Of a stretch of DNA of 64,000 nt, positions 7,823-64,000 are shown piece after piece. A model generated the notes under the pieces. The model ran no database searches. It was given only the letters and a program-made list of their open reading frames with translations, and was not told the DNA's origin. Both the position numbers and the translations under genes were made by a program. How positions within the stretch are numbered: position 1 is the stretch's first letter; each line of letters starts with the position of its first letter. This DNA comes from Bryoerythrophyllum caledonicum (taxonomy: Eukaryota; Streptophyta; Bryopsida; Pottiales; Pottiaceae). The DNA is taken from contig OZ020518.1 in NCBI GenBank assembly GCA_963971425.1, positions 15,442,990-15,506,989 of the forward strand, in the 5' to 3' direction.

Positions 7823-7823
7823 A

Positions 7824-7994: not shown

Positions 7995-8303
7995 AGTCAT
8001 AAGTGCTTAGGCAGCTGGTGCCAGTTGACATACATACTCTGAATAATAAACTGAATGTTGAATAGTTAGTCACAATACCTCATCAAGATGATTGTTAAAT
8101 TTCGCACCCACAAAATCTATGGACGTTGCGTAGTGGTTTGAGTTTTTTCATAAAAGTTCACAAACAGTTCACTGTGTATAAGGTGGACCAAATTATTTCA
8201 AAATACTTGCAATAATTTCAGTAAACGCAAATTGCTCTGGTCCACCTTCATTCTCAATCCACATCAAATCATTGACCTCAAAAATGGTGTGGTTTGTTAC
8301 AAA
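7824..8303. repeat. Foldback left arm (about 480 bp)
   Basis: The reverse complement matches 9295-9777 nearly end to end. The arm runs from TTAGAACAAGAAAAG to GGTGTGGTTTGTTAC. It carries a 57-codon open segment (see next entry). The two arms differ by scattered substitutions, so they are not a recent or assembly-generated copy. The spacer is about 990 bp. Confidence 0.8.
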
Positions 8304-9120: not shown

Positions 9121-9294
9121 CTAGTAGTTTTATGATCTAGATACTACTACTATATATAAATATATAGTATATATATATATATAGTAGTTTTATGATCATA
9201 AAACTATTATATATATATAGTAGTATCTAGATCATAAAACTACTATATCATAAAACTACTATTATATAGTTTTATGATACTACAATATATAGTT
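9121..9294. repeat. AT-rich nested palindrome (cruciform-prone)
   Basis: Repeats of TAGTAGTTTTATGATC and its complement, alternating with TATATA runs, make several nested inverted repeats. It sits immediately left of the right foldback arm. Confidence 0.7.
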
Positions 9295-9777
9295 TTGTAA
9301 CAACCCACACCATTTTTGAGGTCAATGATTTGACGTGGATAGAGAATGAAGGTGGACCAGAGCAATTTGCGTTTACGGGAATTATTGCAAGTATTTTGAA
9401 ATAATTTGGTCCACCTTATACACAGTGAACTGTTTGTGAACTTTTATGAAAAAACTCAAGCCACTACGCAACATCCATAGATTTTGTGGATGCGAAATTT
9501 AACAATCATCTTGATGAGGTATTGTGACTAACTATTCAACATTCAGTTTATTATTCAGAGTATGTATGTCAACTGGCACCAGCTGCCTAAGCACTTATGA
9601 CTTCAGCAGTGGTGCCCAAAGTTGACGCCACATCCACAATTGTCAGCTCCACGGAACGCATCAGCTTGGCTCTTGAAGGTGGCAGTGACGGAGAATGTAC
9701 TTACAGTGATGATCGAGTCATTCAAAACATGACTGAAGGAGACGATGAGTTTTGACCTCTTTTCTTGTTCTAACCTA
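9295..9777. repeat. Foldback right arm
   Basis: Reverse complement of 7824-8303. On the minus strand, just upstream of its coding start, the sequence CATTTTCAG followed by GTATAGG resembles a 3' splice site, consistent with the arm carrying a captured exon. Confidence 0.8.
9603..9777 (-). pseudogene. Cys-rich ORF fragment in the foldback right arm
   Basis: Same frame, length and stop position as the left-arm fragment: LEQEKRSKLIVSFSHVL continuing to NCGCGVNFGHHC and stop. It extends open upstream to about 9875, where residues no longer match the other arm. Function unknown. Confidence 0.35.
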
Positions 9778-16512: not shown

Positions 16513-17097
16513 TTACTAAAACCTATTTATTCAGTTAAGAAGTTAAACACGGTCATGATGTAAGAACCACCTCAAACAGTGCCAGGTTTCCAGTCAATGC
16601 CGAGGTTGACGAACACTGTAGCTTTACAAAATACTTGACTTCGAACACAAAGCTATCTCTTTACGACGGTCACCGTTGCCCAAATACAACACGTAAACAA
16701 GAGTCCAGTTATTAAGCGATGATACCTGAATATCTGAAATCAAACATTAAGTTCCTTTTTCTAGTCAATGGTAGAAACAGACAGGAAAAGTGCAAAAGAA
16801 GTCCAAATAGGAGGGATGGATACAAGAGTTGGTCAGGAAACACCACCAGGCATGGATGATCCGAGGCGGCTTTAAGATGTGTGGGACCATCCATTGGCCA
16901 CGCTAGTATTAATCTCCACCTTCCTCCATTCTAGTTGTATTGAGGTGCCGCAGCCAGTCCGCTTGTAAGTCTGCACAGTCGTAGCACCTCAACGGCTTCA
17001 TGAGGTAGAAGGACTTGGCATCCTCATCAGTTGGAAGAAGTCGACATCTTCGTCAGTAAGTACGAGGTGGTGCGGGCAGATTGATCAGAGAGGGACG
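16513..17097 (+). promoter_or_regulatory. Upstream region of PAL
   Basis: The intergenic sequence immediately before PAL becomes more GC-rich towards the ATG. I see no unambiguous TATA box or named element, so the transcription start cannot be placed. No other gene is supported. Confidence 0.3.
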
Positions 17098-36389: not shown

Positions 36390-36779
36390 AAGAAATCCCC
36401 TCCTGCACCACCGTTCGACGGATGCCAGACTCTAACTTTAGCATTAGTTAATCAAGCATGAGTGAGATTGAAACTTACAGATTACAGATGTACACAATAC
36501 ATCAACCCCAATTTCAACGCCACACCAAGCTCAACATGCCCGATGAAACACCTTAGAGTGTTCTCCGATTGCATATAACATAGCAACAGATAGCTGCCAA
36601 ACTTAGAAAGCACTCATGACAGTGGCGAACAACAGTTTCATTCTCACATAGGACCCTGATGACCGAAAACTGGACTTCAGCAAGCTCAAGGAAAGAGCAA
36701 TGCGATGAGAAGCATGCCTACCCAGAAGGTTCGGCCTACGACGCCACGTCACCGCACTTGACTCTCCCTCCGCATCCAC

Positions 36780-37365
36780 CAAGCTGCTTCCTATGATTCC
36801 TCTAATCTGCAGGCAAAAGAGAGGGAAAGAAAGATTCCTGGGTGCACAAAGTCGGAGAAGGAACAGGACCCTTCCCACCGGCCCTAACAGGATTCAGGGG
36901 CTCCTGTGTGCTGTACACTGCGCACTGCAGGGGTACAGTGTCTTCATCCAGAGTGGGCCACCGCGTCGAGAAATAAATGTCCAGCATGAGCTCTCCAAAT
37001 CCTCACCGTGCCTTCTTCGACTCACAGTTCACGCTTCCCCTGGAGTGGTGCCCTTCCATCGCCGACGTTGTTGTCATCTGCTTCTGGAGCCGAGGGCGCT
37101 GCATGTGCTTATGGTGGCGAGTGAGGTACGGTGCTTCTTCTCTGTCGTGCATCGTCGTGTGTTAGGGATCTCTTGCCGTGGATGGCGAAACCCTCGTCGC
37201 TCTTTTGGTGGGAGTGGGTGGTGTTTGTGGTTTGGCCATCGTTTCCGGCGTTGGATTTAGAATCCTTTCCGTGTGCAGGTCGTCGGGACGTGCATCGATC
37301 TGAGGTTGGGGTTGCAGACGAGCCGAAACTAGAAAGCGAGGGGTTGCATTCTGTTGGGGGGAGTG
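36780..37365 (+). promoter_or_regulatory. 5' leader and promoter region of kinase copy 2
   Basis: Counterpart of 1940-2560. The probable leader intron runs from GTACGG at about 37129 to TGTGCAG at about 37278. An ATG-initiated ORF at 36793-37260 (155 codons) ends at the same place as its counterpart. Confidence 0.45.
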
Positions 37366-38610
37366 ATGGGGAACACACGCTCGTGCATACGCAACTCGGA
37401 CGCTGTTTCTCGCTGTGGGAATGGGGACACAAGGAGTGGGAAGCTGAGGAGTGATGTTGAGGACCGAATTGAGTGTTCGAAGGTGCACTGGAGCCAGCTC
37501 ACGGATCGTGAGTCAGACCTTGAGGATGAGGAAGTGGCGCAAGAGAACAGGCAAGTGTTTGAGAAATTGCAATCACATTCCACTTGGCGTCACTTATTCA
37601 AGACATTCAATTATGACACACGGGATTGGTCAAGGGATGGTGAGTTGGTGGTGGAGAAGAAGTTTGCGGAGGGGGGACAAGCTGAGCTCTTTCATGCCAA
37701 GGTCCTTTGGAGTAATCCAAAGAGGAATGAGGAAGATTTGGAGGAGGGACGTGAGTGGGTGCTAAAGGTGTTTAAACATGGTACTCGCTTGCAAGAATTA
37801 CAAGCTCTATGGCCCCTTGGGTTCATGCAATCGCAGGTAGAGAGTGTGGATCGTTTTAAGCTTGGTCTACCTCCACCGGTGCGATTCTACTGTGATGTGC
37901 ATTGTGGAACATTGTTGGAGGATGGTAGATTTGCCTTTCTAATGGGTAAAGAACATGAAGATTTACGCAGCCAGATTGATCGTACAATGTTGAGTTTTAG
38001 ATGGCATTATGGACCATTTTCGAAAGCTGAAGTAGAAAGGATCATGTTTCATATTGCACTCGGCATGGATTGGTTGCATAGCCATGACATTCTTCATAGG
38101 GACCTCAAAGCATCCAATGTTTTGGTGTCTCAAGTAGATGGATTCCATCCGAACTATCATGTTGCGGATTTTGAGTGTTCCGTTGGAGTTGTGGGAACTG
38201 GATTTTTCATGGCCCCAGAGATATTACAAGCTCTAAAGAATAAGGTTTTAAGCAAAGATATAAAGGTGTTCTCGAAAGAAGCAGATGTTTATAGCTACGG
38301 TATGACATGCTATGAGGTCTTGACAGGGAAACTTCCATTTCAAGGTCACGATACAACTGATTATGATCTAGTACTCCGTGGAAATCGACCAAGGATTCCA
38401 AAATATGTAAATAATTGGATGAAGGAATTGTTGAATAGATGTTGGGATGCGAATTGTTCAAAGAGACCTCTTTTTCCAGAGATAATGGAAATTCTCTTGA
38501 GTAATTCAGCTGTCGCTAGGAAAATTCAATTACGTATTCAAAAGCATGAAGAAGAGAGATATAGAAAAAATAATGAGAGGTTATTGCAACAAGGTTTGGT
38601 AGTAGAATGA
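37366..38610 (+). CDS. Putative N-myristoylated Ser/Thr protein kinase, copy 2
   Basis: Single-exon ORF of 414 residues starting MGNTRSCI, with Gly2 for myristoylation and Cys7. Compared with copy 1 it lacks about 37 residues of the N-terminal region before TRSGKLRSD, then aligns along its whole length. HRDLKASN, the DFE variant (VADFECS), GTGFFMAPE and DVYSYGMTCYEVLTGKLPF are all kept, and there are no stops or frameshifts. Conservation of both full frames after a duplication whose non-coding flanks have diverged suggests that both are functional. Same family and same unknown substrate as copy 1. Confidence 0.85.
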   Translation: MGNTRSCIRNSDAVSRCGNGDTRSGKLRSDVEDRIECSKVHWSQLTDRESDLEDEEVAQENRQVFEKLQSHSTWRHLFKTFNYDTRDWSRDGELVVEKKFAEGGQAELFHAKVLWSNPKRNEEDLEEGREWVLKVFKHGTRLQELQALWPLGFMQSQVESVDRFKLGLPPPVRFYCDVHCGTLLEDGRFAFLMGKEHEDLRSQIDRTMLSFRWHYGPFSKAEVERIMFHIALGMDWLHSHDILHRDLKASNVLVSQVDGFHPNYHVADFECSVGVVGTGFFMAPEILQALKNKVLSKDIKVFSKEADVYSYGMTCYEVLTGKLPFQGHDTTDYDLVLRGNRPRIPKYVNNWMKELLNRCWDANCSKRPLFPEIMEILLSNSAVARKIQLRIQKHEEERYRKNNERLLQQGLVVE

Positions 38611-40771
38611 AATTAAGACGGGTGGAAAAGTTCAATTATGTGCCTTTACAAACCATCAATATCCAAGATGTTTGTGTAAAGAAAGATATTTTTGTGATTT
38701 CCGTAGTTGACTAATTTGAAAGAATAGACCATGTACTCTTTATATATTGTTCAATTTATTGAGTTACTTTGTACTTATTGGCTTTCCTTTTCCTTTTCTA
38801 GATTAGTCATTTACATTCCATGTTTCTATCAACATATGCCATGCATCCTACATCCACTACCCTTGGTTATTTGAATGTTTTCCCCTATCTTAACACTTTA
38901 GAGGTATCCAATATTACATGCACCAAGCTCTTCAATCTTGTCTTTCATGTGTAGGTGATTCTTTGCATCCTAAACCTCAAGAGTCACTCCGTGCGGGACA
39001 CTATGTGCAATTTCATAAAGACCCTTGGAAGTTGGCTGAGTGGAAATGGGAGATTTGATGGCCTCAATGGATGAGATTGTGTATTAGAAGTTGGGAGAAC
39101 TACAATGATGCGGAGATATATGCTTCATAGTATGACTACCATAGCACATCAATTGCTGATGTAAAAGACATTATCTACTTTCATGTTTAGGCCAATTTTT
39201 TGGTTGGTATTTCTCAAGGGTAGAGATCTTCTTTGGTTGATTAGGACCTTCGTCAAGCTCTGGTTCCTTTGTCATGCTCCTCTCATGACACTCTTCCCTG
39301 TTAACCCTAGAACGTCAGAGGAGCCAGAAATTGGCTTCATGGATGACAATTTGAGGATGATAATTAATGTGAATGATCTTTTATCCAAATCTTTTTGGAG
39401 AGTTTATTGAATGTGTAAGTAGTAGATGATGATGATGATGAAACTTGCCTTGTTGAGGTCGTCACGGTTTATCTAGTAAAGAAAATCTTTATGACATGGA
39501 TCTCAATGTAGTGTAATTTAGAAATTTCTACCTTTTGCTCTAAATCTAAATTTGAGTGATTCAAATGATACTTTTTGAATTTGAGTCCAACTATTGAAAC
39601 AAAGCTTATGCAGTCTAGTTTCCATTCTAGTTTAAAATTTTGAAAAATACATAAAATTGAATAAGTTATTGTCGTTTGAACTTTGGGCCATCACCATGGT
39701 TGACCAATTTTCTAATAATAGCTGAACATGGAAGTTTTATCTACACACCAATTTTTGGCACCGTAATGTATACCTCTTGTGAAATTTTCAGAGTTTTTAA
39801 GCATAAGCAATATTTGATATGAATTTTGTTCACTTTTATTTAGGAAAATCACGATAATTGTAAATTTTCACGAAAAAATCTGCTAGTTTTATGACATAAG
39901 CAAGACATGTAATCTCATGTGTGAAAAGTAAATATAAAGAATTCCACCTATATTGAATGAAGAAATAGAGCACATAGTGGAACGAAAATTGGGATTGATG
40001 CACGGTCCAGTGACGCTATCTTGTGAGTGGTGAGCGGCCAACATACAAAACTCTGAAAATTGGAAAAAAATCACAATTTTTAAAAAAAATGTGAAATTGT
40101 CGGCAATTTGGGCAAAACTATGAATTTTGGAGCATTTTTCTTTTCTAATTTCTAAATTAAGTAAATAGCCTATAACCGTGGTCACTTGTGGAACAATTTT
40201 TTTGGACTACTGGGCCTTCTTCTCTTCTCGTGCTTTGGTTATAACGTACGTCTAATATCTTTAAATTTAGAATGATCACATTCAAATCTTGTACATTAGG
40301 TTTATAATTTTTGTTTAGGCACGACAAAATTATTATTTAAAAATATCCACTAATTTGGACACAAGGTATACTGCAAGATATCACATAGGTATCAAAAAGG
40401 CTTTGCCTAGGTTTATAACAAGTATCACATAGGCATTACTTGGGTATCATCCATGTATTATAAGGTCATTACGTGGACAATTAATGGGATCACTTACATA
40501 AATTCAAAGGGATTTTTGAAAAAGGTTGATAGTCTTTACTTTGAATTCAACTAGTACAAAACTCTCCATTTCGTACGGTAGTATATGCAAAGTACGCCAA
40601 TTATCAAATCATAACAAACTCAATAAGTACATGAACTAAATGCACGTCCATGTCTACGACTCTGCAACTCTACATCTGAGCAATCTAAGATCGTAAATCT
40701 TTTTGAGAAATACGACATCATTGCTTTTCTCACTCTTGTTCGGCAATGTTCGCAACAGGGTTGTCATACTG

Positions 40772-42961: not shown

Positions 42962-43458
42962 CGACCTACTTCATTCTCCCGCCATATGTGATTGTCAACT
43001 CCCTACCGTGGTCGTAATTCCAAGTTGATGGTTTTAAAAAAAACCGCAAAGAGTCTGGGTACAATAAATGGGCCAAACCCAATCACCCACCAAACTCACT
43101 TTCAGGCCGCAAAACGAACTGACAAGTGAGGCCTAGGGAGTGGACTTGGCAGAGAATAAGGACAAAATGTCCCCTATTTATATGGTGTAGGGTTCCTTTT
43201 GCGAAGACGTCCCCGCCCTACCCAAGTAGGGCCGGGACGTCTCCGCCCCTGCCTGGGGTAGGGCGGAGACGTCCCCGCCCCTGCCCGGGGACCCTAGACC
43301 AGTGCTTCGTCTATCGGCTATATAATATCGTGCACACCCCTAATTGTCCCCGCCTCACATACTCCCTCTTCATCCACCTCTTAATTGAGTTGGTTGTGGG
43401 CGTCGTGTGAAGACTTCATCCATTCGCATCACATATATTATTCAGATTTTCCCCACCC
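42962..43458. promoter_or_regulatory. Bidirectional promoter region between kinase and RING genes
   Basis: Contains the GACGTC palindrome array (43200-43292) and a TATATAATA box at 43319-43327, about 130 bp before the RING-gene ATG. A second AT-rich box (TATTTATATGG, about 43175) lies on the kinase side. Confidence 0.5.
43200..43292. repeat. GACGTC palindrome array upstream of the RING gene
   Basis: GACGTC at 43206-43211, 43236-43241 and 43268-43273 (steps of 30 and 32 bp). Between successive GACGTC sites the sequence is itself a GC-rich hairpin of the form CCCCGCCC...GGGCGGRG. The array ends about 27 bp before a TATA box. GACGTC is the core of plant bZIP C-box sites (established knowledge); binding here is inference. 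Confidence 0.75.
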
Positions 43459-49404: not shown

Positions 49405-49460
49405 ACAGCGGAGACGTCTCCGCCCCTACCGAGGCACGGGCGGGGACGTCTCCGACGGAA
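49405..49460. repeat. GACGTC palindrome pair
   Basis: GACGTC at 49413-49418 and 49445-49450, 32 bp apart, with GC-rich arms CGGAGACGTCTCCG and GCGGGGACGTCTCCG. Confidence 0.7.
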
Positions 49461-49659
49461 CCCACGTCCAAGTCGCGAGCGAAAAGGCACAAGCACGTGG
49501 TAGGCTGAAGAGGACCGAACGAGCCCTTCACCAACGTTACTATTGACTAGGAGTATTTAAAGGTTTAGGACGTAGCAAATCAATTTTGTGAACAATACTT
49601 TTGCTCTAAACATTATATGGTTTTAAATATCCTTTTTGTTTGTAATGGTACAATTTATT

Positions 49660-49918: not shown

Positions 49919-50150
49919 TAGGGAGCTAATAAAGGTGTTCATTATTGGAGAGCATGCCGTCAAAGGACAAAAGTAGTACTTTCCCGAAAGCCTTCCTTCG
50001 TAGACATAACCTGCTTCTAATTTTAAGTGCGTCGGAATCTTGTCGGAACCAAAAATAAGGTACCCTATATTAAAACCTCCACCCTCCTCATGGAGAGGAG
50101 GAGTGCCTAAGCACCCAAAATGCCCCAAAGGCCTCCTTCTTTTGGATTGG
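49919..50150. repeat. Direct repeat B, upstream of the BED/DUF659 gene
   Basis: Partner of 46650-46985. In this copy the palindromic array, TATA box and transposase-like ORF follow immediately, so the repeat is probably the 5' part of one mobile-element family. Confidence 0.65.
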
Positions 50151-50270
50151 GGAGACGTCCCAGCCCCTGCCCAAGTAAGGGCGGGGACGTCCCCGCCCTT
50201 ACCCGGGCAAGGGCGGGGACGTCTCCCCACAACAAGGCAGGGCGGAGACGTCCCCACCCTTGGCACTTCA
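50150..50270. repeat. GACGTC palindrome array upstream of the BED/DUF659 gene
   Basis: GACGTC at 50154-50159, 50186-50191, 50218-50223 and 50247-50252 (steps of 32, 32 and 29 bp), with hairpin-forming CCCCGCCC...GGGCGGGG between them. The last site is about 43 bp upstream of a TATA box. Confidence 0.75.
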
Positions 50271-50302: not shown

Positions 50303-50557
50303 GTTCTGGGAGGGCCGATTGTCCTCACACTTGTCACTTTGGCCTCTATCCCTTGGACCTCAATTCAGTTTGAGCTCCTTGCAAGTCTACTTGGGTGGCA
50401 GGCGGCACTGGTGTGCGGCTGAGGTGATGTAAAATTGGTTCAAGCAGTGCACCAGCGCTATCAGACCTCACATTTTCACATGATTCTATACTATAACTAG
50501 CCCCGAATTTTGGCTTAGACGGGACTTGCACATTATTTGGCATAAGCTGTGAATGCA

Positions 50558-51322
50558 ATGGGAAGTCAAAGGAAGCAAACAAAAGAATGGGAACCTTGGT
50601 ACAATTTTGCTGACAACGGGGGCAAAGTGAGTTGTGTTTTCTGTAACTATACTTTTAGCTACAAACGTGAGCGTGCGTTCGCTCACTTTGGATACGGCGC
50701 CAAGTCAGAGAGGTCGATTTGTCGTAGCCTACCTCCCTATGTGCGAAGTCGATTTGCCAATTGTGGAAACATTGTTCCGCAACGAATGACGGGCGGGGAC
50801 ATGTATGGCGGAGATTCAGGCCCGAGTGGTCCATCGAGGGCACCAACTATTGACACTTCAAGCCAATCCGACGCTCAAAATAATGTGGCGGGTGGGGTAA
50901 CAAGTGGGCCTCAGGAAGGAGTGCCTAATCTCTCTGAAGGAAACGACCGCGAACATGTGTCGGGTGGTCTTACCGCCTCGAATTCCACTAGATCTGGGCA
51001 ACTACATCAACAACGGATGCTTGATGCTTTTAACATTGCAAAGAGGAAGGAACTTGATGAGAAGTGGGCGACTTTTTTCTATCAAGCGAATGTGCCTTTT
51101 AATGTGGCGCGAAATCAAGCGTTCATCGATGTAGTGAGGGCGACATCTGTGGCAAAGTTTGAGTACACTCCTCCTACATATCACCAGTTGAGGACTAGAT
51201 TGATTGAACCTAAGAGGTTGCAAATTGAGAAAGAGATTGAAGCCAAAGTTGGTTTTGCAATCAAGAATTATGGGGTGTCGATATGCACGGATGGTTGGGA
51301 TGACAGGATTGCTATCTTGTGA
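50558..51322 (+). pseudogene. BED-finger / DUF659 hAT-like transposase, C-terminally truncated
   Basis: ATG at 50558 (MGSQRKQTKEWEPWYNF), 254 codons. A BED-type zinc finger is seen at KVSCVFCNYTF...RAFAHFGYG. After a Gly/Ser-rich linker comes the DUF659-like start: WATFFYQANVPFNVARNQAF, then a PPTYHQLR element and VSICTDGWDD with the first catalytic Asp of hAT transposases. The frame ends soon after DGWDD in GC-rich sequence, so the rest of the RNase H core and the dimerisation region are missing. No downstream continuation was recognised. It cannot be an active transposase, but a domesticated DNA-binding remnant is possible. Confidence 0.8.
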
Positions 51323-52078
51323 GCGGCGAGCGGTGAGCACTGATTTTTTGCAATTTATTTGGTACTGTTTTTTGAAGAATTTGGAAAGGGTCGCCTATGG
51401 CCGTGGGTTCTATTAAAACTGTGTTGACATATGAAAAAAAAACTGAAATTTTCGACGACAATGTACTTGGACGTATGGAAGTATGAGTTTTTTAGGATTG
51501 ATTGCAACAATTCTCACCTCATTGGAAGGGACGCTTATGGGTGAGGATTTAGATTTCAGGGTACCGCGACAAGTCAATAGAATATGAAATACAGCAGAAA
51601 AAATTGAAGTAATATTGTTTAGGATGGCAGGCAGTATCCATGTGATACTTAGTTCATACCCTTATAATACCTTGGTGATATCCATGAAATACCTAGGTGG
51701 AAAAAAATAGATATTATGGAGATACCCGTTGGGTCCGAACCACTCTAAATTGAAACAATCTAATTCTTAGCGAACGGTTGTTTAAAAAAGAGCAATGCCT
51801 AAGATACAAAGCCTATAAACTTAGAGGACATGTATCCAAGTTACAAAGGTTTTTTTATTATGAATCAAGTTTTAAATCGTAGATAGAACGATATCTTTTA
51901 ATATCGAAGCATGCCGTACGATGTTTTACGTAAGACATACGTGAAAAGAAAGGGATTTTGACAGGAATGAAGATGATTCACGATGGGACAATATTGAAGA
52001 CAACCAACTGGTAGTGTGATGGTAAACAAAGCAATAAACCAATGCAATGGAATCAAGATTCCTCCGCGAAAAGTCAGC
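51323..52078. other. Intergenic, AT-rich
   Basis: Includes GATACC/GGTGATATCC words at 51610-51740 related to the array at 12408. No gene is supported. Confidence 0.4.
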
Positions 52079-52346
52079 TGGAATCACTATCGTCAGAAAA
52101 ACTATCACTACGCTCCGAGCCACTAACGTAAGCCTCCCCATCTATGAACGGACATGTAGTAACTCTACGTAAGACTACCGTTTGAAGACGTGGAGGGGAA
52201 TGTTGTGCGGCCATGGCGTCTGCAACCTGGGCATCCCAGGGATTCAAATGGAATCGTCGTGTGGGGCTCTTCACCTCCAATAATAATGGAGACAACACTC
52301 CAACATGAGTCCTTGACAATGATGCCATCAACGACGAAGGCCGACT
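52079..52346 (-). other. Possible alternative 3' exon of the ParB/methyltransferase-like gene
   Basis: Begins after a good acceptor (TTTGTGCAG at 52347-52355). One frame stays open to a stop at 52079, ending in an acidic-Ser tail (SERSDSFSDDSDSS). A donor-like GTGAGT lies in the last codons of the preceding exon (52437-52657). The phase for joining could not be reconciled, so it may be an alternative exon, UTR, or unrelated. Confidence 0.3.
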
Positions 52347-52436
52347 GCACAAATTAAAGTCTCGTTAAGAATTTAAGCTTGAGACAAGCTAGAACTAAAA
52401 CCGCATTCCAAAACTAGAACCGAATCAGGGTAGGAC

Positions 52437-55400
52437 TTACTCACAACGTCTCTTGGGGACGGTCTTCACCTCTGGCTCGTCGTCATCAACCTCCAAGGGG
52501 CGCTTGCGAGAGCCCTCTCCCACCACCGGTGGCGGTGCTGACTCGACCTCAACAATGTTCGGGACCAAAGGAAGAAGGACTTCATCCACCAACTCTCGGT
52601 CCTCCTCCAGTGCCAAAATGTGCCGCTTTAGCGCCTTGCAGGCTTTAATAGACGCCCCTTCATTCAAAAAAACAAATCATACGATGTTAGCTATGATACG
52701 AAGGTAAAACTAAAGAATTTTGTAATGGAATAAACTAACCTGTAGATGCTGTGAGATCCAAGACAATGTCCTCGTGATGTGTGCAGAGATCAATCAGAGC
52801 CTCCATGAGGTTCGTAGACTTTTCGCGAGCACCACGCCATGGTACGTCGCTATCGGCCCTCATAGTCAACGTCTCATGAGTAATGAGATTGGTCATGTGA
52901 CCATCTGAAGACAGATGAATCCCGTCTCTTTGCAGCTCCATCCTATCAAAGAATGAGAAAGGAACCGCGGGATCCAATTTCCTCACGAAGCACTTCACAA
53001 GAAAGCACTTGTGAGTGCGCCCAGGGTGGCCATCGCGGAAAAGTGGTAGCACGTTGATGGCAAACCATTTTGTCTCCTCGACAAATCCTGCCCAATCGGC
53101 CCAGGCTGAAAGTTCATTGGAGATGAACTTCGAATCCGGGTAGAACACGATAAGCAGCGCCCCGTCACGAAGCAACGCCCCAACTATCTCAAATGCCCGG
53201 TAAATCCAATGGGATTCTTTCTTCCCTCCGTCTGATAATCGGGTTGGAAGCTTGTTCCAATTTGGTACGTCGATGCCGCCATCAAGGTCGGGGACCGGTA
53301 AATCCTCTGGTACGTCCAAGAGTACCATATCCGCCAAACCTAGAGCACAATCCAGATCCTCATGTCGCCGATGCCGTGAGCCCGAGTGCTCCTTCAAAAA
53401 CTTGCGAAGCTCCTTCCAGGCCTCTGGTTCGTCATCCTCCACAACGACGCTGTCAAATTGAGACATAATGGAGAGGGCACTCTCACACATCACCTTCACA
53501 GCAGCAGAAGACTGAGGAAGATCAAATAATGGTATCAAATACACCGTCTGAGAGGGCTTCACATCAAAGGTAGAAGGTCGGCTGCTAGCTGAGGGTGAAA
53601 CGCCCATCGTCAAAGTCACCGCAGGAGGGACTGCGAATCCCCCCAATCCCCCCAATTGAGTAAACAGCTTCTGGGGACCTTCCTTCGCCACCAACGCCGC
53701 GAACTCATTGTACCTCTCCTTCGTCTCTTTCTTCTCCTTCTTCGAACTCTCCTTCTCCAGCCTTGCAGCCTCCCTCTCTTGTTCCTTGATTACTGCCTTA
53801 GCGGCTTTCTCGGCAGCCTTGGCTTTGGCCTTCTCGGATTGCTCCTCAGACGCTGCCAACGGAGCCGCCAACAAGGGAAGGACGCTGCCAACCACAGGAG
53901 GCACCGCCATGGACTCGCATGCCACTCGAAGCTGGACCTCGTCTCCAGGTGTGGGATCCACCTCACGCATCTCCAAGTACCACGGGCATTGGAGGAGGTG
54001 GTGAACAGAGAACCGACGCCTCTGTGAATCTGTGAAGATACACTCTGGTGCAGAAGTATCTATCCACTTTGTGAAACGAGTGGGTAGATCTCCGGGCAAC
54101 AAGGATCCCTGTGCCACGAGCACCCTCCAAAAATATCGCATCACAACTCGCTTCAGAGCCTTCTCGCATCCGTCTTGCGCCATAAACTCCTCGCCCTTCG
54201 TGTAGGAGCCCCCCTTGCCGATGAGAGTACAGAACACCTTTGTCCACAACGTCATGCTCTTTGCCTCAATCCATTTCCTAGTGGCAGGAACGGGATTTGG
54301 AAGCCCGGCAGTCTGGAGGACAATGTTGTCTTCGAGAAGAATCTCTGCGTAGAGTTTCTCAGACTCTTCTTCTAGCTGTGAAACGAAATCCACATAGTTA
54401 AGAATTGATGATAAAGATAACATTCGGAAATAATGAGAATATCAAGAAAAATTAAACATTACCCCAGCCCAGAACGCTGCCTTGTCAATCCAGCCTCGAA
54501 GAACCTTGTCAGACGCGGGCGATGCGGGGAAGTTATACTCCATCCTACTGCCCTTGCTCATGTTCCACCACCTGCACCAGCGCATCTTGAACTTCGCAGC
54601 TACCCTAGCTGTAGCGCTGAGCTGGAGTTTTTCGGGAGTCATCTCGGGCCGCACCTGATAAACATCATAGTGCCGATTCACCTATACTCCAATATCAATA
54701 ATTAGAGTGGACTCTACAAGGTCAGAAGTTAAAAATTTGATATCGATAGGAATGGAGTATATACATATACCCTACCTCCTTGAAGAAATCCTCCCCGTTT
54801 GCCGGGTTGGCAATTGCCAACAACCGAGTGAGCATGGTCTGACAAGTCGTCTTCTTCTTTTGTACAGCCTCAGTGCAGCGGCTCACCAACTCTGCAACAC
54901 TTCCACGCCGATCCTCACTGACACCCGTGACCAAGGTATCCTTAAACTTTTGGATCTGCTCCTCTTGAACAGCAATCAGGTCCCGCTGTGGACAACATAA
55001 GGTCGTGATCAGTATCAATATTCTGAACTAGAATATTGAAGGGAGAGTAATGGCAAGAGCTACATGTTCATCATAATCATAACGTACCTCAAACATGAGC
55101 TTCACAAATGCTTCGAGAGTCATATGATACCACTTTCGTTGTCCCTTCTTTGACCACTCATGGACACTCAGTTCGTAATCATCATCGCTGATGAGCCCCT
55201 TTAATTGCTCAAACTCTAAGAGCCCGAAATGCTGAACACGTTTTAGATCGTGAGTGAGGTGTTGCACAACGTGGTCTGATTCTTTTTGCCTTCGACAAAA
55301 GAGAATTTCAATGTCAAAAAATGAAGTACAATGGTGAAAGCAGCTGAAACAAACGAATGCCAGGAGTATCTAAGTTCGTGCGCACCTGTTCAAGTCGGTC

Positions 55401-56005
55401 ATCACGTTGAGCAAGATGTGTCGGTTCTCGATAGTTGGCTCAATCACCACGGCTCTAACGGGCACATGAAAGCTGACATCGGATGGGTGCAGTTGGGATA
55501 TCACCTCTGTCCAAGCCATATGGCGATGATTGCCATCCCACACGAAAAAGAATTTCTCTGAAAACGCCGAGTACTCCGGTCGAGTCTTCAACAGCTCCTC
55601 GAACTTCCGGTCCTCTTCAATCCAAAGCTCTGACCATGATGACCTGTCTACTGGTTGCACCCGCTTCTCGACAAGGGAGAAACTCCTCACCGACATATAA
55701 AAACAAGCAGAACCAGGCCGATACCCATTGACGAACTCCCCCTTCAACTTCTCGACATCACTTCTAAGAGGTAACCTCACCTCAGTCATGGGCACCATTT
55801 GGCAGAGAGGAATTGGGAGATCACCACCGAAAGAGCAAATGCTGCTCTGTAGGATGTCGTATGAGGTCCCACGGATGGACCTCCGCAAAGATTGAAGTGT
55901 TGGAGCGAGCCCATGCTCATCAACAAGTTCACCAACGCGTTCTTCGTCCTCTAGAATCTCAAGATCCTCACGCGAAGAAGAAGCTGTGGGTCCCAAACTC
56001 TCAAC
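52437..56005 (-). CDS. ParB-like domain plus degenerate amino-methyltransferase-fold protein, multi-exon (5' end incomplete)
   Basis: Exons 55386-56005, 55088-55289, 54776-54985, 54463-54681, 52740-54375 and 52437-52657 join in phase through GT-AG introns to 1,035 residues, with more sequence upstream. Exon 1 has a ParB/sulfiredoxin-like core: EKRVQPVD, IEEDRKFEELL, then FFFVWDGNHRHMAW (DGNHR at 157-161) and VPVRAVVIEP. Residues 594-641 are a Lys/Glu/Ala-rich coiled coil. Residues about 760-1000 follow the order of a beta-class N4/N6 amino-methyltransferase: LADMVLLDVPE (motif IV, DVPE 771-774 in place of DPPY), LLRDGALLIVF, a KW...HKCFLVKC segment, and KSTNLMEALI...DIVLDLTASTGASIKACKAL (motif I, 957-963 in place of DPFAGSG) followed by ALEED. 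Motif I is split by the last intron. ParB-methyltransferase fusions are known in phages and prophages; a role here in DNA binding or modification is inference, and the altered catalytic motif argues against activity. Confidence 0.75.
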
Positions 56006-56180
56006 CTGCAATAAGTATGCATAAGAAATCCAAGCAACAAACTGCATCCACCTGTCACATATACTTGAAATGAATCTAGATATATATCTAGACCAGACCA
56101 GTCAACTTAATTCTACCGTATGAATTGCTACTTGTATGGCAAACCATGGTCATGAAATAGCTCGGTACGAAACGAACCAA
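56006..56180. other. Intron or upstream flank of the ParB/methyltransferase-like gene
   Basis: The exon acceptor (TTATTGCAG, minus strand) is at 56006-56014, so more 5' sequence of the gene lies at higher coordinates. Confidence 0.5.
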
Positions 56181-56566
56181 TGACCCATCCACACCCCAGC
56201 CTAGACCTCACCATCCATCCTACACCCACTCCCCACCCCGCCTACACACCCCAGCCTCCCACCCACAATCCGCACTCTCACTCTCACGACAAGCTGCACG
56301 TTCCCAGCTCAAAGTTCTGGATCATCGACGCAAGAATTATCGAATCCATGAACATAAGAATGATCTCATGTTCGTGACCATCAAAGGATAGAATGATATG
56401 CACGCGCGTCGACGACTTTAGCCAGCAGGGATAGGACTCTTGAATTTTTACGAAAATCAGTGACCCCTGAAAATGGCTTTCGGATCCGAAAGCCATTTTC
56501 CGGGGTCACTGATTTTCGTAAAAATTCAAGATTCCCTCCCCTGCTGGCTAAGGTCCATCGCGCTGT
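56181..56566. repeat. Isolated copy of the palindromic 520-bp repeat (5' part diverged)
   Basis: A C-rich pyrimidine tract, then a 134-bp imperfect palindrome (56418-56551, centre GGATCC at 56482-56487). It ends within CCATCGCG, where the next copy's sequence resumes at about 58283. A 1.7-kb segment is thus interposed. Confidence 0.85.
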
Positions 56567-56699
56567 CCTGATGGAAATTCTTCCATCATGTACATACAAG
56601 TATTAGTCTTTATATGTGTGGATTTTAATAAGTAAGGAGTTGGGATAAAAAGGTTTGGTCGTGGTGAGAACCACGGTTTGAGGATTTGGGCAAGTGTTA

Positions 56700-56910
56700 G
56701 CATGTAGGTGCTGCACCGCTCTTGTCACTGCTCAGGGGGTAGGTAGCGGGTTGACTGGTATTTTTCCTGCCTCACTAGCGAGCCAAGCCGTGGGCCGCTC
56801 AACCACTCGACGGGCTCGATCGGGTTCGAACCCGGACTGGCGGCGGCCACTGACCACGATATTTCCAGCCAACCAAGTCCACGACTTGGCGATCAGGTTG
56901 TGCGAATCAA
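56700..56910 (+). repeat. tRNA-like/SINE-like repeat
   Basis: Contains GGTTCGAACCC (56823-56833), a perfect pol III B-box-like word, and TGCTCAGGGGG (about 56731-56741), an A-box-like word. The spacing (about 90 bp) is longer than in a tRNA. A diverged second copy is at 47090-47320. Not a functional tRNA gene: I cannot fold an acceptor stem. Confidence 0.4.
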
Positions 56911-57177
56911 CACCTTTATACGTCCGTTCCATCAGCTATCTTACGATAAGTTTTTATTTATTTATTTTTTAGTTATTTTTTTTATTTTACTTATCTTGTT
57001 GGTTGGAAGGTCTAAATTTTTAGTCTTCCAATAAATAAAAGACTAGGGGATTTATGTGGTTGAAAGTGGAAAGGATAAGAAAGTAGCAAAGTACCTTTTG
57101 GGGTACTTTGGATAGGGTGACATGGGTTGGAGTGCCCACGTCCACTTGAGGTGGAAAAGTTGGGAAAGATATTCCTT

Positions 57178-57198
57178 AGTGTGTGTGTGTGTGTGTGC
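57178..57198. repeat. GT microsatellite
   Basis: An uninterrupted run of about nine GT units. Confidence 0.9.
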
Positions 57199-58282
57199 GG
57201 GTGAGAGAGGAAGGGTTTGGAGCAGAACTTTGACTGTGTGTAACTCGTTGAGCTTGAACGATATGGAATTGAAAATTTGTGATCTTGTTCCTTGTTTTGA
57301 GAGCTTTCTATACTCGTTTTAAATTTTGAATTCGGAGTTGTAGAGAAAAAGTTATTGAGGTTTTAATTCTGTGAAAACCCGAGGCCATCCATTGAGAGGC
57401 AGAGGTTTCGAGGAGCCACAACTTTCTCTGTAGTTCTCAATTTGATTTGAGATTTGGAGGGTGTATGCGTCTCTATCTTAGCTTTCTAGAAAGATATCAC
57501 AATTGAAATTCGGAGTTGTGAGCAAGAAGTTATAGAGATCTGAATGAATAGGGGTAGGCAGAACTTTGATTGTCCATAACTTTCGGACAGTAGTTTAGAT
57601 TGACTTGAAATTTGGAGGAGTGTTAGTTGTCTAAATTAGCTTTCCAGAGAGCTATTATACTTAGTATTTGAAGTTTTGAGTCATCTGTGTCACTTGTTTG
57701 AAGGTTACAGCCTTGGTGAAACTTTTCCATTGTGTTTTTGAACACTTCTTTTGAGTTTCTTAGTGTTTTTGAACACTTGAAGACTTTGGAGTTGAAGGAT
57801 GGAGGAATTGAAGACTTGAGGCTTGAAGAGAAGAGAAGATGGAGACAAGTGTGTTGTGGCTTGTGGTCCGATTTCTTTTTTTGTGATTCCAAGCCAGCTT
57901 TGGAGGCTAGTTGTATTTCAATTCTGTTCTTGTAAACTCTGTTGCGGCGAAGTGGGGTTAATTGCCCACACGGTCGTGTTTATGTCGTTCCCACCGGTGA
58001 GGCACGTTTGCTGGTCACCGTGGGTTTGAATTTTAGGAGCCAATCTTTCGGACGATTTCAGCTTGTGGTCTGGCCGTCCCGTTTTACCCGTCCGAGGCCG
58101 TGGTTTCTTATCACCCACCTTCACCCTTAAACCTTTAGAGCCACCACATGATAGGCCAACAGGGAGGAGTTTGAAGACTGAAGACCTGAAGATTTGAAGG
58201 TACGATTGGATTCCCGAGCAAACAATCTCCAGTCGTAGCCAGATTCCCTGCGAATTCTCAAGGCGCTCCCCTCTCTACACGA

Positions 58283-61200
58283 CAGCGCGCGCACGAGCAA
58301 CGACGAATCTAGCATAAATGCATGCACACAAGGCAGAGCTCAATACAGTCTCTTACCCCTACCCCCCCTGGCCTTGAGATCAACAACACTCAAAGACTAG
58401 AGAATGTTTTCCCTGGACCACCCCTCGCACACTCCCACGTCGAGCCCCACCCACACATCCCAGCCTCGCACCCACACTCCCCACCCTTCCCTCACTCACT
58501 CATCACCCTCCCACCTACTCTCCTCACCCTCACTCCCTCTCCTGTATGCATGATATGAGCTTATAGACCTCGAACACTGATGCAATAATTTCGGAATCCA
58601 TGAAACCGATCCTGTGATCGTGATCACCACAGGAATGAAAGATATCCATGCGAGTCAAAGACCTTAGCCAGCGGGGATAGGATTTTCAAATTTTTACGAA
58701 AATCAGTGACCCTTGAAAATGGCTTTCGGATCCGAAAGCCATTTTCAGGGGTCACTGATTTTCGTAAAAATTCATGATTCCCTCCCCTGCTGGCTAAGGT
58801 CCATCGCGCGCGTACGAGCAACGACAAGATTACCATTCATGCACGCACGCGAGGCAGAGCTCAATACAGTATCTTATCCCAACCCCCCGGCCTTGAGATC
58901 AACAACAAGGTCAGACTAGAGAATATTTTCCCTCGACCACCCCTCGCACACTCACACGTCGAGCCCCACCCACACATCCCAGCCTCGCACCCACACTCCC
59001 TACCCTTCCCTCACTCACTCATCACCCTCCCACCTACTCTCCTCACCCTCACTCCCTCTCCTGTATGCATGATATGAGCATATAGACCTCGATCACCGAT
59101 GCAATAATCTCCAAATCCATGAACACGATCCTATGAACGTGACCATCAAAGGATTGAATGATATGCACGCGCGTCGACGACTTTAGCCAGCAGGGGAGGG
59201 AATCATGAATTTTAACAAAAATCAGTGACCCCTGAAAATGGCTTTCGGATCCGAAAGCCATTTTCAGGGGTCACTGATTTTTGTTAAAATTCATGATTCC
59301 CTCCCCTGCTGGCTAAGGTCCATCGCGCGCGCACGAGCAACGACAAAACTAGCATGAATGCATGCACACGAGGCAGAGCTCAATGCAGTCTCTTACCCCT
59401 ACCCCCCCGGCCTTGAGATCAACAGCACTCACAGACTATAAATTGTTTTCCCTGGACCACCCCTCGCACACTCCCACGTCGAGCCTTACCCAGACTTCCC
59501 AGCCTCGCACCCACACTCTCCACCCTTCCCTCACCCTGTCATCACCCTCCCGCCCACTCTCCCCACCTTCACTCGCTCTCCAATATGCATGAAACGAGCT
59601 CATTGACATAGACCTAGATCACCGACGCATGAATTTCTGAATCCATGAACACGATCTCATAATCGTGACCATCACCGGAAGAATAATATGCAGGTGCGTC
59701 GAAGACCACAGCCAGCAGGCATAGGAATCTCAAATTTTTACGAAAATCAGTGACCCCCGAAAATGGCTTTCGGATCCGAAAGCCACTTTCAGGGGTCACT
59801 GATTTTCGTATAAAACCATGATTCCCTCCCCTGCTGGCTAAGGTCCATCGCGCGCGCACGAGCAACAACAAGACTAGCATACATGCATGCACACGAGGCA
59901 GAGCTCAAAACAGTATCATACCCCTATCCCCCTCAGCCATGACATCAACAACACTCACAGACTAGAGAAAATATTCACTGGACCACCCCTCGCACACTCT
60001 CACGTCGAGCCTTACCCACACTTCCCAGCCTCGCACCAATACACCCCACCCATTCCTCACCCACTCATCAACCTCCCATCCACTCTCCCCACCCTTACTC
60101 CCTCTCCAGAATGCATGAAATCAGCTCATTCCCCTGGATCACCGACGCAAGAATTACCAAATCCATGAATACGATCTTATGATCGTGACCACCACAGGAA
60201 TGAAAGATAAGCACGAACGTCGAAGACCTTGGCCAGCAGGGGAGGGAATCATGAATTTTTACGAAAATCAGTGACCCCTGAAAATGGCTTTCGGATCCGA
60301 AAGCCATTTTCGGGGGTCACTGATTTTCGTAAAAATTCATAATTCCCTCCCCTGCTGGCTAAGGTCCATCGCGCGCGCACAATCAACGACAAAACTAGCA
60401 TGAATGCATGCACACAAGGCAGAGCTCAATACAATCTCTTACCCCTACCCCCCCCGGCCTTGAGATCAACAACACTCAAAGACTAGAGAATGTTTTCCCT
60501 GGACCACCCCTCGCATACTTTCACGTCGAGCCCCACCCACACATCCCAGCCTCGCACCCACACTCCCCACCCTTCCCTCACTCACTCACTCATCACCCTC
60601 CCACCTACTCTCCTCACCCTCACTCCCTCTCCTGTATGCATGATATGAGCTTATAGACCTCGAACACTGATGCAATAATTTCGGAATCCATGAAACCGAT
60701 CCTGTGATCGTGATCACCACAGGAATGAAAGATATCCATGCGAGTCAAAGACCTTAGCCAGCGGGGATAGGATTTTCAAATTTTTACGAAAATCAGTGAC
60801 CCTTGAAAATGGCTTTCGGATCCGAAAGCCATTTTCAGGGGTCACTGATTTTCGTAAAAATTCATGATTCCCTCCCCTGCTGGCTAAGGTCCATCGCGCG
60901 CGTACGAGCAACGACAAGATTACCATTCATGCACGCACGCGAGGCAGAGCTCAATACAGTATCTTATCCCAACCCCCCGGCCTTGAGATCAACAACAAGG
61001 TCAGACTAGAGAATATTTTCCCTCGACCACCCCTCGCACACTCACACGTCGAGCCCCACCCACACATCCCAGCCTCGCACCCACACTCCCCACCCCACCC
61101 TCACCCACCCATCACCCTCCCACCCACTCACCCCACTCTCACTTCCTCTCAGTATGCATGATTTGAGCTCATAGACTGGGTTCACCGACGCATGAATTAC

Positions 61201-61640
61201 CGAACTCATGAACACGATCTTATGATCGTCACCACCACAGGAATGAAAGATAATCACGCGCGTCGAAGAACTTATCCAGCAGGGGCAGGAATCTCAAAAT
61301 GTTACGAAAATCAGTGACCCCTGAAAATGGCTTTCGGATCCGAAAGCCATTTTTAGGGGTCACTGATTTTCGTTACATATCATGATTCCCTCCCCTGCTG
61401 GCTAAGGTCCATCGCGCGCGCACTCTTGACAGCAAGACTAACATCCTTTCTTGCGCTCAAGGCAGAGCTGGAAACGAATTCAACCCCGTACCCCCACAGC
61501 CAAGACCTCAACGAAACACACAGTCTTTGGAATTTATTCGCTGGACCTCACAACGCACACTCTCACGTCGCGCCCATCCTGCACTTCCCATCCTCCGACC
61601 GACACTCTCTCTTCGTGCCCGTGCAACACCACAGGAAAAG
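58283..61640. repeat. Tandem array of about 520-bp units with a 134-bp palindrome in each
   Basis: Six full units; palindrome centres (GGATCC) at 58728, 59247, 59772, 60293, 60818 and 61336, giving steps of 518-525 bp. Each unit: GCGCGCACGAGCAACGAC, ATGCATGCACAC, GGCAGAGCTCAA, a C-rich tract of about 120 bp (CCCACCCACACATCCCAGCC...), then the palindrome from TTAGCCAGC to GCTGGCTAA. Part of a diverged seventh unit runs to about 61640. The short ORFs across it (for example MAFGSESHFQGSLIFVKI) are by-products of the palindromes. Confidence 0.92.
59183..59316. repeat. Perfect 134-bp palindrome (third of seven)
   Basis: Bases 59183-59316 read the same on both strands about the centre 59249.5, from TTAGCCAGCAGGGG to CCCCTGCTGGCTAA. 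Two substitutions peculiar to this copy (TTTTACGAAAA becoming TTTAACAAAAA) are mirrored in the other arm. Confidence 0.95.
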
Positions 61641-62271
61641 CGCACCAAAACCCTAACGAATTCTCCCAGATCAACCAAATTACAAGGAATGGCAAATACG
61701 GAACACGGAGATGTGAAGAAGACGTACTTGAAGTCCTGCCATTTTCTCCAGCTGCGAATCTGCTGCCACCAAACTCCGCCGCTTACTCCCCGCGCACGCA
61801 ACCTGCAAGGACAGAGATTTTCACTACATTCAGCAACTCCGCCATGAAGACTAACAAAATTTCAGTGAACATCTCCCGAGAAGCAGGTGTGAAAACATGA
61901 GAAGTTCTCGAATGCTTGAAGAACCGAACCCGGATGAAGAAGGAGATCCTGAACCTTGCTCGAGGTTGCAACGTGAGCCGTCTGCAGATGAGTGACTACC
62001 GACCGATGAGACGAACCAACGGGCCCCACATTAATCCTAAACCCTAATTATCGGAGGCAGTATGGCCTTTTTGGGAGCCCAATATCGAATATGTAAGGTT
62101 CTGAAACCAAATATGTGACGTATGTCATTAATGTACTGATTCTCGGGAGCTCTATAACAGGTCGGTAGCTCATTGACTAAACTGAACCACGACGATAAGA
62201 GTCACTCGTGGTCTTAGAACAGGTACAAGAACGGGAACTGATTGATCGAAAATTTATCTAATTGTGACATA
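61641..62271. other. Intergenic or intronic, no firm gene
   Basis: Overlapping ORFs on both strands at 61426-61971 have no domain. A 32-codon plus-strand ORF at 61898-61996 is acidic and unrecognised. Confidence 0.35.
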
Positions 62272-62486
62272 CCTGATTTAGTGGGTCCCTTTGAAGTTCC
62301 AACAATTTGTCCGCGAGGTCCTCAACGCTTCTTCGATGAGACGTTACTCCTTTGCCGGATGCCTTTGATGAGGAACCGTCTCCGACCAGTGTGGGTCGTG
62401 ATTGATTTCTCAGCCTCCCGTTTTCTTCGCTTGAGTCACTATTTTGGCAGTCAGAATGGCCTTCACTGTCTTCAGAACCTTTATCC
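62272..62486 (-). other. Putative upstream exon (Ser-rich, helical end)
   Basis: Minus-strand segment after a CAAG acceptor, open through SEDSEGHSDCQNSDSSEENG and SVEDLADKLLELQRDPLNQ to a GTATGT donor in phase 0. The first visible exon of the ParB/methyltransferase-like gene (56005) also begins in phase 0, so the two could be joined across an intron holding the palindromic array. Not proved. Confidence 0.3.
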
Positions 62487-62693
62487 ACTTGTTACGAGGT
62501 CTCACTGGTACTAGATCTTTGATACATTTTCCTGGAGTTTCCTTCTATAGTGTTTGCCTCTTCAAAATGCTCATGAATACTTACGATTGTACAAGACTCC
62601 TGATTATCAATACAGGATGCCAGAATCAGATGAACCATTGGACTCTCTTCTATTCAGCCACATAAAATGATCTAAATATATTGAATATTTAAA

Positions 62694-62901
62694 CATACAT
62701 GAATCTGTGATTGGACTGGCTGCGGTCCCTGGTGGATACTTGACAAAGCCCGAAAACGTTCGCCCGATTCCGATGTATCGACTTCCAGGTTCTGAGCAGC
62801 CAACAATGACTGTTGACTGCGCCGATCCTTTCGAGCCCGCGTCTGCTTCGGATTGGAGAAATTGGTACTTCGCTTCTTCCGGCCACCTATCTTAGTCATC
62901 A
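62694..62901 (-). other. Putative first exon, basic N-terminus
   Basis: Minus-strand open segment from MMTKIGGRKKRSTNF with a strongly basic stretch (TRARKDRRSQQ), ending at CAGATTCAT before GTATGT. The phase does not fit the exon at 62272-62486 without another exon or a different donor, so it may belong elsewhere. Confidence 0.25.
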
Positions 62902-63420
62902 TCTACAAGATAGCCAAACCACTCATCCGCACTCTCTTTTAACATCCGAGCCTCCCTATGCATCCAAACAACTCAGTGCAATACTCCTGCGTTGCGGTGA
63001 TAGAGCCCCTCTTCTACTCAATCTTGCTACCGTTTACACCAAAGATCTACTATTTAATATTAAGCTCTTCTCAGATCTAGTTTGTTACACGCTGTCGCAA
63101 AGCCCTACAATAGCTCTCCAATATAATCCGCTGATCCATCCGTCGATTACGGGGCACAATTATTGTTAAGCATCTTCATGTTTGGAAATATACGATCCGG
63201 AAAATCTAAAGTTGTATTCATTATGTAACTACAACAAGACAATTAACAAAATTGGTAATCGGTATTCCAGCTCACTCCTTTCTTAATCCAATTTAATCTG
63301 GAAGATAAACTAGTGTCATTGTACACTCAAGCCACCAACAGGCTAGAATGGAAGCACTCTCTATAGATTTAAGTATTTCCGCCGTAATTTCACTCATTCG
63401 TAATTTATAGATTTCCACGT
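62902..63420. other. Intergenic, no supported gene
   Basis: Plus-strand ORF 62813-63169 overlaps the minus-strand candidate exon and has no recognisable domain. Confidence 0.35.
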
Positions 63421-63427
63421 ATGTTGC

Positions 63428-63437
63428 TATATATAAG
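63428..63437 (+). promoter_or_regulatory. TATA box (TATATATAAG)
   Basis: Lies about 150 bp upstream of the ATG at 63578 in a gene-free stretch. Spacing suits a short 5' UTR. Confidence 0.45.
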
Positions 63438-63577
63438 AAAATATATTCTCTCCGTAATCAATTCTTTACCAGTTCAGTATTTGAACAAGCACAGCAAGCT
63501 AGTTCTTACTCTCTTTCGCAATTCAGTTGTCATTGCACCCCACCCTCCTTTAACACCGCCTCTGATAGTCGTTGTGC

Positions 63578-64000
63578 ATGGCGTCTCTTACTTTTCATCA
63601 AGGCGGTGCTCCACTTGTCGTGCCCATTGGCGACAATGGCACAGTCAGTATCTCCGAGTCAATGCTATGTGTTCGTTTTGGTTATCGGGCTGGCACAGTC
63701 CACATTGAACAAGAGGTCTATGATAGCAAAGGTATTCATGAGCAGTCCATTTATCAAGTGAAAGGCAGTGACATTGGAGGATTTTTTTGGAGCTTGTGTC
63801 GTGGTTCATTCAAAGTATTTGGTGTTACAGATGTTCAATTCGCCGCTCATGCGTCCGTAGCCGTCATGACTCCTCCGACCGATTCTGGTGATACCGTACT
63901 CGTGCCCGGTTTAGGCACTAGGTCTAACCCAAGCGTCCATGTCCTTAGCGATACAGAGGAAGATGAACTATCTGATGTGAACCTTGCAGAGTCAAAGATC
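63578..64000 (+). CDS. Hypothetical protein, partial (runs off the right edge)
   Basis: From the ATG the frame is open for all 141 codons to the window end. It starts MASLTFHQGGAPLVVPIGDN and reads like a compact beta-rich domain (MLCVRFGYRAGTVHIEQEVY, then GGFFWSLCRGSFKVFGVTDV). After a Thr/Pro/Gly linker it has VHVLSDTEEDE, which fits a SUMO-interacting motif (hydrophobic core followed by acids). No catalytic motif or known domain is recognised. It faces away from the ParB/methyltransferase-like gene. The remainder lies outside the window. Confidence 0.5.
   Translation, partial: MASLTFHQGGAPLVVPIGDNGTVSISESMLCVRFGYRAGTVHIEQEVYDSKGIHEQSIYQVKGSDIGGFFWSLCRGSFKVFGVTDVQFAAHASVAVMTPPTDSGDTVLVPGLGTRSNPSVHVLSDTEEDELSDVNLAESKI

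Follow-up and report, generated by a model that had tools for sequence, protein, structure and literature searches.

A transposon-borne gene in Bryoerythrophyllum caledonicum

The stretch analysed here, referred to as the window, comprises 64,000 nucleotides of the moss Bryoerythrophyllum caledonicum (assembly GCA_963971425.1, contig OZ020518.1, forward-strand positions 15,442,990 to 15,506,989). Near its right end lies a minus-strand gene of six exons, which an original prediction, made from the sequence alone, had described as a ParB-like motif followed by a beta-class N4/N6 DNA methyltransferase, and had attributed either to an old transfer or to a mobile element. The gene is an accessory gene inside a multicopy DNA transposon, and an array of palindromes stands beside it in the same element (Table 1). 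Of the two origins proposed, that of a mobile-element protein is borne out by the copy number, the target-site duplications (TSDs) and the frame restored at the empty site; they lend no support to an old transfer retained as a host gene.

Table 1. Features of the transposon and its genes (window positions; the right part of the element continues into L038, where position 3963 equals window position 67963).
Feature	Position	Strand	Evidence
Left 10-bp TSD, GTTGGGATGA (right copy L038:3964-3973)	51294..51303		TSD comparison
Transposon, 16,660 bp	51304..64000, on to L038:3963		Ends common to 6/6 other copies, termini, TSDs
Left inverted end, CAGGATTGCTATCTTGTGAGCGG, then GAGCGG-type subterminal repeats; right end is the inverted counterpart	51304..51340	+	Terminal sequences
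Exon 6 (methyltransferase-like C-terminus, charged tail, stop)	52437..52657	-	Splice, Pfam, relative P0001, older copies
Exon 5 (middle region; methyltransferase-like domain with DVPE as motif IV-like and TASTG as motif I-like segment)	52740..54375	-	Splice, Pfam, relative P0001, older copies
Exon 4	54463..54681	-	In-phase splice, older copies
Exon 3	54776..54985	-	In-phase splice, older copies
Exon 2	55088..55289	-	In-phase splice, older copies
Exon 1 as read (WDGNHRHMAW ... VPVRAVVI motif; 5' end provisional)	55386..56005	-	In-phase splice, older copies
Array of ~520-bp units, one spacer-less palindrome each (core GGCTTTCGGATCCGAAAGCC)	56391..61605		Repeat and palindrome scans, other copies
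Insert of ~1.7 kb in the array (starts TG, ends CA; solo-LTR-like)	56564..58284		None in 6 other copies compared
Conserved exon set, either coding for a small basic protein (MMTKIGGRKKRS...) or belonging to the 5' part of the ParB/methyltransferase gene	61729..62902	-	First exon conserved in older copies L046, L048
Start of putative transposase frame; in phase into L038:1-1710, further frame L038:1711-3141	63569..64000	+	Reading frame, weak Pfam match

The limits of the element are the same in every young copy compared together with its flanks: similarity to the window starts at 51321 and stops at 67927-67967 in all six. Its right end, read in inverted orientation, is CAGCGACGCTATCTTGTGAGCGG. 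Among seven copies, the one in the window included, the 10-bp TSD is exact in four, matches at 9 of 10 positions in two and is missing in one, and in two of the four copies with an exact TSD the terminal CTG is replaced by TTG. When the element and one duplication are removed, a hAT frame of 1,191 codons reads through without a stop (...CTDGWDDVHRRPL...); its right part carries DUF659 and hAT dimerisation domains. Because this frame is open across the empty site, the hAT-like neighbour was the target of the insertion, and the hAT/DUF659 frame at 50546 is ruled out as the element's transposase. The RING and kinase frames at 41-46 kb are likewise ruled out as element genes, lying left of the common end. 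Common ends, inverted termini, target duplication and an empty-site frame together identify a DNA transposon; a scan for terminal inverted repeats limited to the window found nothing, the right end being outside it. The window copy, at 16,660 bp, is longer than the five other copies sized (14,243 to 14,953 bp). At 40008-40040 a sequence almost identical to the terminus (CAGTGACGCTATCTTGTGAGTGG...) starts again, and a related element or a remnant may begin there.

In the 437-Mb genome of the moss itself, a search with exon 5 gave at least 79 matches (the best 79 of 3,431 first-look candidates). Among those 79, 30 are at 96% identity or above, and 26 of these 30 contain no internal stop (counted by eye). 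Seven young copies are 98.8-99.5% identical pairwise over 5 kb. The putative transposase frame has a sub-threshold Transposase_mut match (E 0.24, Pfam) and a SWIM-like CxCx19CxH seen by eye. Mutator-like elements have TSDs of about 8-11 bp, a length that the 10-bp duplication fits. The duplication and the weak transposase match suggest that the element, a young one, is probably Mutator-like.

Gene structure and relatives

The six exons join in phase, as had been predicted, into a product of 1,035 residues plus stop with the frame kept throughout, and the five introns all run GT..AG and are 82-102 bp each. The join of exons 5 and 6 is supported because the match to PF01555 (N6_N4_Mtase) strengthens across the junction, from 12.7 bits when the exon 5 piece is scored by itself to 31.2 bits for residues ~690-1005, above the Pfam cut-off of 26.7 (the whole 1,035-residue product scores 25.4, slightly under it). 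Introns diverge more than the aligned gene region overall in all six older genomic copies examined; intron identity is 40-55% in four of these, and all five GT/AG pairs are intact in three of the six. A relative from another record, P0001, is 49% identical to exons 5 and 6 and has additional residues at the position of intron 5. Every landmark that had been named is found in the product: GNHR at residue 158, VRAVVI at 183, DVPE at 771 and TASTG at 959. These comparisons indicate that the six-exon gene and its reading frame are real. Bacterial contamination is ruled out by the introns, as the original prediction had argued and the older copies support, and by the presence of copies on contigs of 22-65 Mb.

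Since the window product begins with V directly after a splice acceptor, and three older copies have MEAIG at the same place, the boundary of the first exon is left provisional. Farther upstream, the exon set at 62902-61729 could be an independent gene for a small basic protein, or else the 5' end of the ParB/methyltransferase gene; of three older copies, two retain its first exon, at 59% and 75% identity.

Against 5.8 billion proteins, the whole 1,035-residue protein found nothing, the region 700-1005 found one relative (P0001), and exon 1 found 18 (P0002-P0019). These relatives come from other records. Of 23 replacements of R among 13 of them that are mutually similar, 20 yield C, Q, H or W, a pattern like that of methylated repeats in decay.

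To assess selection, we compared the window protein with the six older copies, which had been picked from the 79 listed matches for few stops (0 to 2), a choice that biases the ratio of nonsynonymous to synonymous rates (dN/dS) downward. Whole-protein dN/dS is 0.086-0.096 against four of them (dS about 1.5) and 0.159 and 0.182 against the other two. Saturation of dS confines the estimate for the ParB-like part to the two nearer copies (0.12 and 0.116); for the methyltransferase part, dN/dS is 0.118-0.24. These ratios show purifying selection between element lineages, under which the protein would have been kept functional.

A methyltransferase-like C-terminus and a ParB-like N-terminal motif

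By its sequence the C-terminus is beta-class methyltransferase-like. Order and spacing of the motifs match the beta-class N4/N6 layout, with the motif IV-like strand first and the motif I-like strand last, and the motif I region is present after motif IV (the C-terminal alignment covers profile positions 164-217 of 221). The best solved relative by sequence is the adenine-specific DNA methyltransferase DpnA (PDB 5hfj, E 4.9e-4, over the motif I part). The catalytic motif IV of beta-class enzymes is (D/N/S)PP(Y/F/W), with DPPY as the catalytic signature; here it reads DVPE, so that the first proline and the aromatic residue of DPPY are lacking and the signature is absent. The methyltransferase half of the prediction is thus upheld by score and motif order, with a motif IV that is degenerate; the original prediction mentioned neither this degeneracy nor the palindromes upstream. 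Of 14 loci, 11 have DVPE at motif IV and one (L044) has DIPE, two giving no pattern match (L040, L043), and P0001 also has DVPE. The presence of DVPE in P0001 and in these 11 loci indicates that DPPY was lost long ago and has stayed lost, which favours a repurposed methyltransferase domain. The segment LLRDGALLIVF of the window copy reads LLRDGAPLI(V/M)F in the other seven young loci.

In proteins of the ParB/Srx kind, a VP(V) strand comes after a G-x-x-R-x-x-A box. Exon 1 has both, in the box WDGNHRHxAW and then VPVRAVVI, and both are also visible in the phage ParB proteins examined. GNHR is intact in the window and in 14 of the 18 exon 1 relatives (the others read GNHH, GNHH and GNHY, and one is truncated). 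The ParB-like PHROG 1033 is touched at the box by 3 of the 19 members (window exon 1 and its 18 relatives), with a best E of 0.09. A match of exon 1 to PHROG 15480 ('methyltransferase'), in 2 of the 19 members at E 0.055 and away from the motif, was judged to be due to chance, and the best Pfam matches of the exon 1 members are chance-level hits to other families (E 0.0076 and up). We call the N-terminus ParB-like by motif and precedent only.

A palindrome array beside the gene

The array stands upstream of the gene, on its right side, and its palindromes are centred at 56484, 58730, 59249, 59774, 60295, 60820 and 61338. The first centre is 479 bp from exon 1 in the window, and equally far in the four copies in which this distance was measured. 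Seven palindromes are also found in five of six other young copies, and five in the remaining one. The palindromes of the window family are centred on GGATCC, and the one at 59249 pairs 40/40. The core pattern is absent from window positions 1-51000. A genome-wide palindrome search listed 40 distinct places (the best 40 of 414 candidates), 38 of them no more than 7.5 kb from one of 29 exon 5 matches. The last bases of the insert that interrupts the array in the window copy reappear near 49407.

Upstream DNA was read for three older copies. Two of them have arrays with a period of 64 bp, containing 10 and 7 cores, and the third has the long-period form, in which a looser scan sees two palindromes and the core pattern one. 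The 520-bp unit of the window aligns to the 64-bp arrays inside the palindrome only, and the core common to the window and the older arrays is mostly TTTCGG(A/G)(T/C)CCGAAA. Because the core is kept beside older copies with a different repeat unit, the protein and the array appear to have been inherited together while the repeat unit was rebuilt. The centres of the older arrays are often GGACCC or GGGTCC, and these differing centres weaken the case for GGATCC as a methylation site. The arms of the seven window palindromes change together: of 497 cells, 5 carry the same change in both arms and 54 a change in one arm; a simple estimate gives about 0.5 expected double changes, and since two pairs among the five are adjacent, they represent perhaps 3 events.

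Comparison with known systems

A transposon-borne protein of the ParB-methyltransferase kind has already been published, so the present one is not a new category. As published for the Ectocarpus transposon Sola1-1, its accessory protein combines a ParB-like part with an N4/N6 methyltransferase on the strand opposite the transposase, similar proteins occur in green and red algal transposons, and the authors suggest that the protein binds its own element and modifies it epigenetically (PMC12477816). By that description, the moss protein shares the claimed domain pair, a similar size (about 1035 aa vs 1104 aa), and a place in a giant element on the strand opposite the transposase. The moss case differs in its plant host, its 10-bp TSD and CAG ends, its Mutator/SWIM-like frame (weak evidence), its DVPE motif and its palindrome array, and the element is not Sola1 as far as tested. 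In the open-access literature searched, we met neither a land-plant example nor a palindrome array next to a gene of this kind; what is new is the plant host, the other element type, the degenerate motif and the candidate target sites.

The same order, ParB-like and then N6_N4_Mtase, is found in phage fusion proteins (Terrisporobacter TPDSL_ph1, Streptococcus Javan128 and Javan424), in two of which both domains exceed the Pfam cut-off, ParB_N of Javan424 being just under it. These are single frames of 388-430 aa, whereas the moss protein is about 600 residues longer, has no detectable ParB_N match and carries the degenerate motif IV. A tblastn search of phages with exon 5 and exon 1 gave no match, and three scans of viral contigs with parts of the gene found no relatives.

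VANDAL elements are Mutator-like, and their VANC anti-silencing proteins offer the closest functional parallel. In the published account, VANC causes loss of DNA methylation on Arabidopsis VANDAL elements, and its target motifs are tandemly arrayed in introns and upstream regions, vary by tandem repetition and turn over between related copies (PMC5735166). The moss element shares with VANC a second protein encoded by a plant transposon, tandem target motifs (candidates here) in non-coding parts of the element, and an array structure that turns over between related families. VANC differs in having DUF1985/DUF287 and a 9-base motif, as opposed to a methyltransferase-like protein and palindromes; neither DUF1985 nor DUF287 was matched in Pfam scans of the moss protein and its parts.

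Possible functions of the protein and the array

We hold, with roughly even confidence and by analogy with VANC, that the gene encodes an accessory protein of a young, probably Mutator-like transposon, which would bind its own array and act in sequence-specific, VANC-like anti-silencing or in self-regulation. The N-terminal, ParB/Srx-like part would bind the palindrome array of its own element family, and the methyltransferase-like domain, with the motif I region kept and DPPY lost, would alter or shield the local state of DNA or chromatin, so that the element could escape silencing or control its own expression. Base methylation is the less likely activity because motif IV is DVPE. A more specific version, in which a land-plant transposon has its own ParB-parS-like module, a ParB/methyltransferase-derived protein loading on a dedicated palindrome array, spreading along the element, keeping it unsilenced and co-evolving with the array between subfamilies, is a tentative one, to which we give about half that confidence.

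Several results weigh against the proposed binding and anti-silencing role. The link to silencing is one of analogy alone, the DVPE motif makes base methylation doubtful, and the selection of older copies for few stops favours low dN/dS. Two of the 40 listed palindrome places have no listed exon 5 match nearby, and among seven flanking 10-kb pieces one, L035, contains the degenerate core pattern at two places. The array may lie in an intron or promoter, and the palindromes could instead serve the transposase or yield hairpin RNA. As to the ParB half of the original prediction, the motif stands but ParB homology reached significance in none of the tests run. No Pfam ParB match was obtained in any of the 19 exon 1 members, and HMM scores against ParB are not beyond the shuffled range. 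The HMM-HMM type of comparison that had been proposed as a check, made here between profiles of exon 1 and 11 phage ParB domains, fell within the range of 20 column shuffles. AlphaFold2 yielded models too low in confidence to use, with a pLDDT of 43 and no significant fold match from the 19 sequences and a pLDDT of 32 for exon 1 as a single sequence.

Among other explanations, the protein might be a self-marking methylase, whose N4-cytosine or N6-adenine methylation of its own element regulates transposition. The N6_N4_Mtase match, the conserved motif I region and the GGATCC centres in the window family fit this idea, and methylation of this kind has been proposed for the algal relatives (PMC12477816); but the loss of the first DPPY proline and of the aromatic residue at 12 of the 14 loci and in P0001, and the other centres in older arrays, make it unlikely. 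Equally unlikely in our judgement is an accessory role in the transposition complex or in replication, with the palindromes as transposase or cruciform-forming sites or as part of a ParB-parS-like maintenance of the element. The array is found in the copies examined, as such a role would have it, and as in ParABS systems there are palindromic sites near the gene; the GTTTC...GAAAC half-sites of the older array resemble the half-parS GTTTCAC given in PMC10419367. The spacing of the centre is unlike that of parS, no ParA match was found in the element frames scanned, and a ParB fold of the protein gained no support in the tests run.

Slightly less probable still is that the palindromes give rise to hairpin small RNAs and have nothing to do with the accessory protein, which would act elsewhere: palindromes as long and near-perfect as that at 59249 would form strong hairpins if transcribed, but the core sequence and its position are kept in a subfamily whose array unit has changed. 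That the gene is a single domesticated host gene of phage origin is highly improbable, since dozens of copies exist, many near-identical and with TSDs, even though its several exons and the purifying selection would suit a host gene; for the window locus, to which this statement is limited, the TSD and the empty-site frame refute it.

With this element, the published, untested idea of a transposon ParB-methyltransferase gains a host among plants, near-identical young copies, signs of selection on the protein and a candidate DNA target, and the model of a protein that binds and modifies its own element becomes directly testable. If right, it would also suggest that sequence-specific anti-silencing arose on more than one occasion in plant transposons, from unrelated proteins following the same logic of arrayed motifs.

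Other features of the window

Scans for tRNA and for Rfam families at gathering score found none in the window. Transposons of plant type, recognised by eye, agree with a plant host, as does the phenylalanine ammonia-lyase-like gene described below. Related GC-rich repeat boxes of the GACGTCCC type occur at 43205-43290, 49408-49463 and 50148-50260; divergent kinase-like and RING-like frames flank the first, and the last precedes the hAT-like frame. A protein-kinase region is duplicated in inverted orientation (559-2819 vs 36468-38635, 84-94% alike piecewise), and an inverted repeat of 483 nt (7821-8303 and 9294-9776) is 96% complementary, its arms 990 nt apart. In a GC-rich stretch at 16969-19594 on the plus strand, exons like those of phenylalanine ammonia-lyase were recognised by eye.

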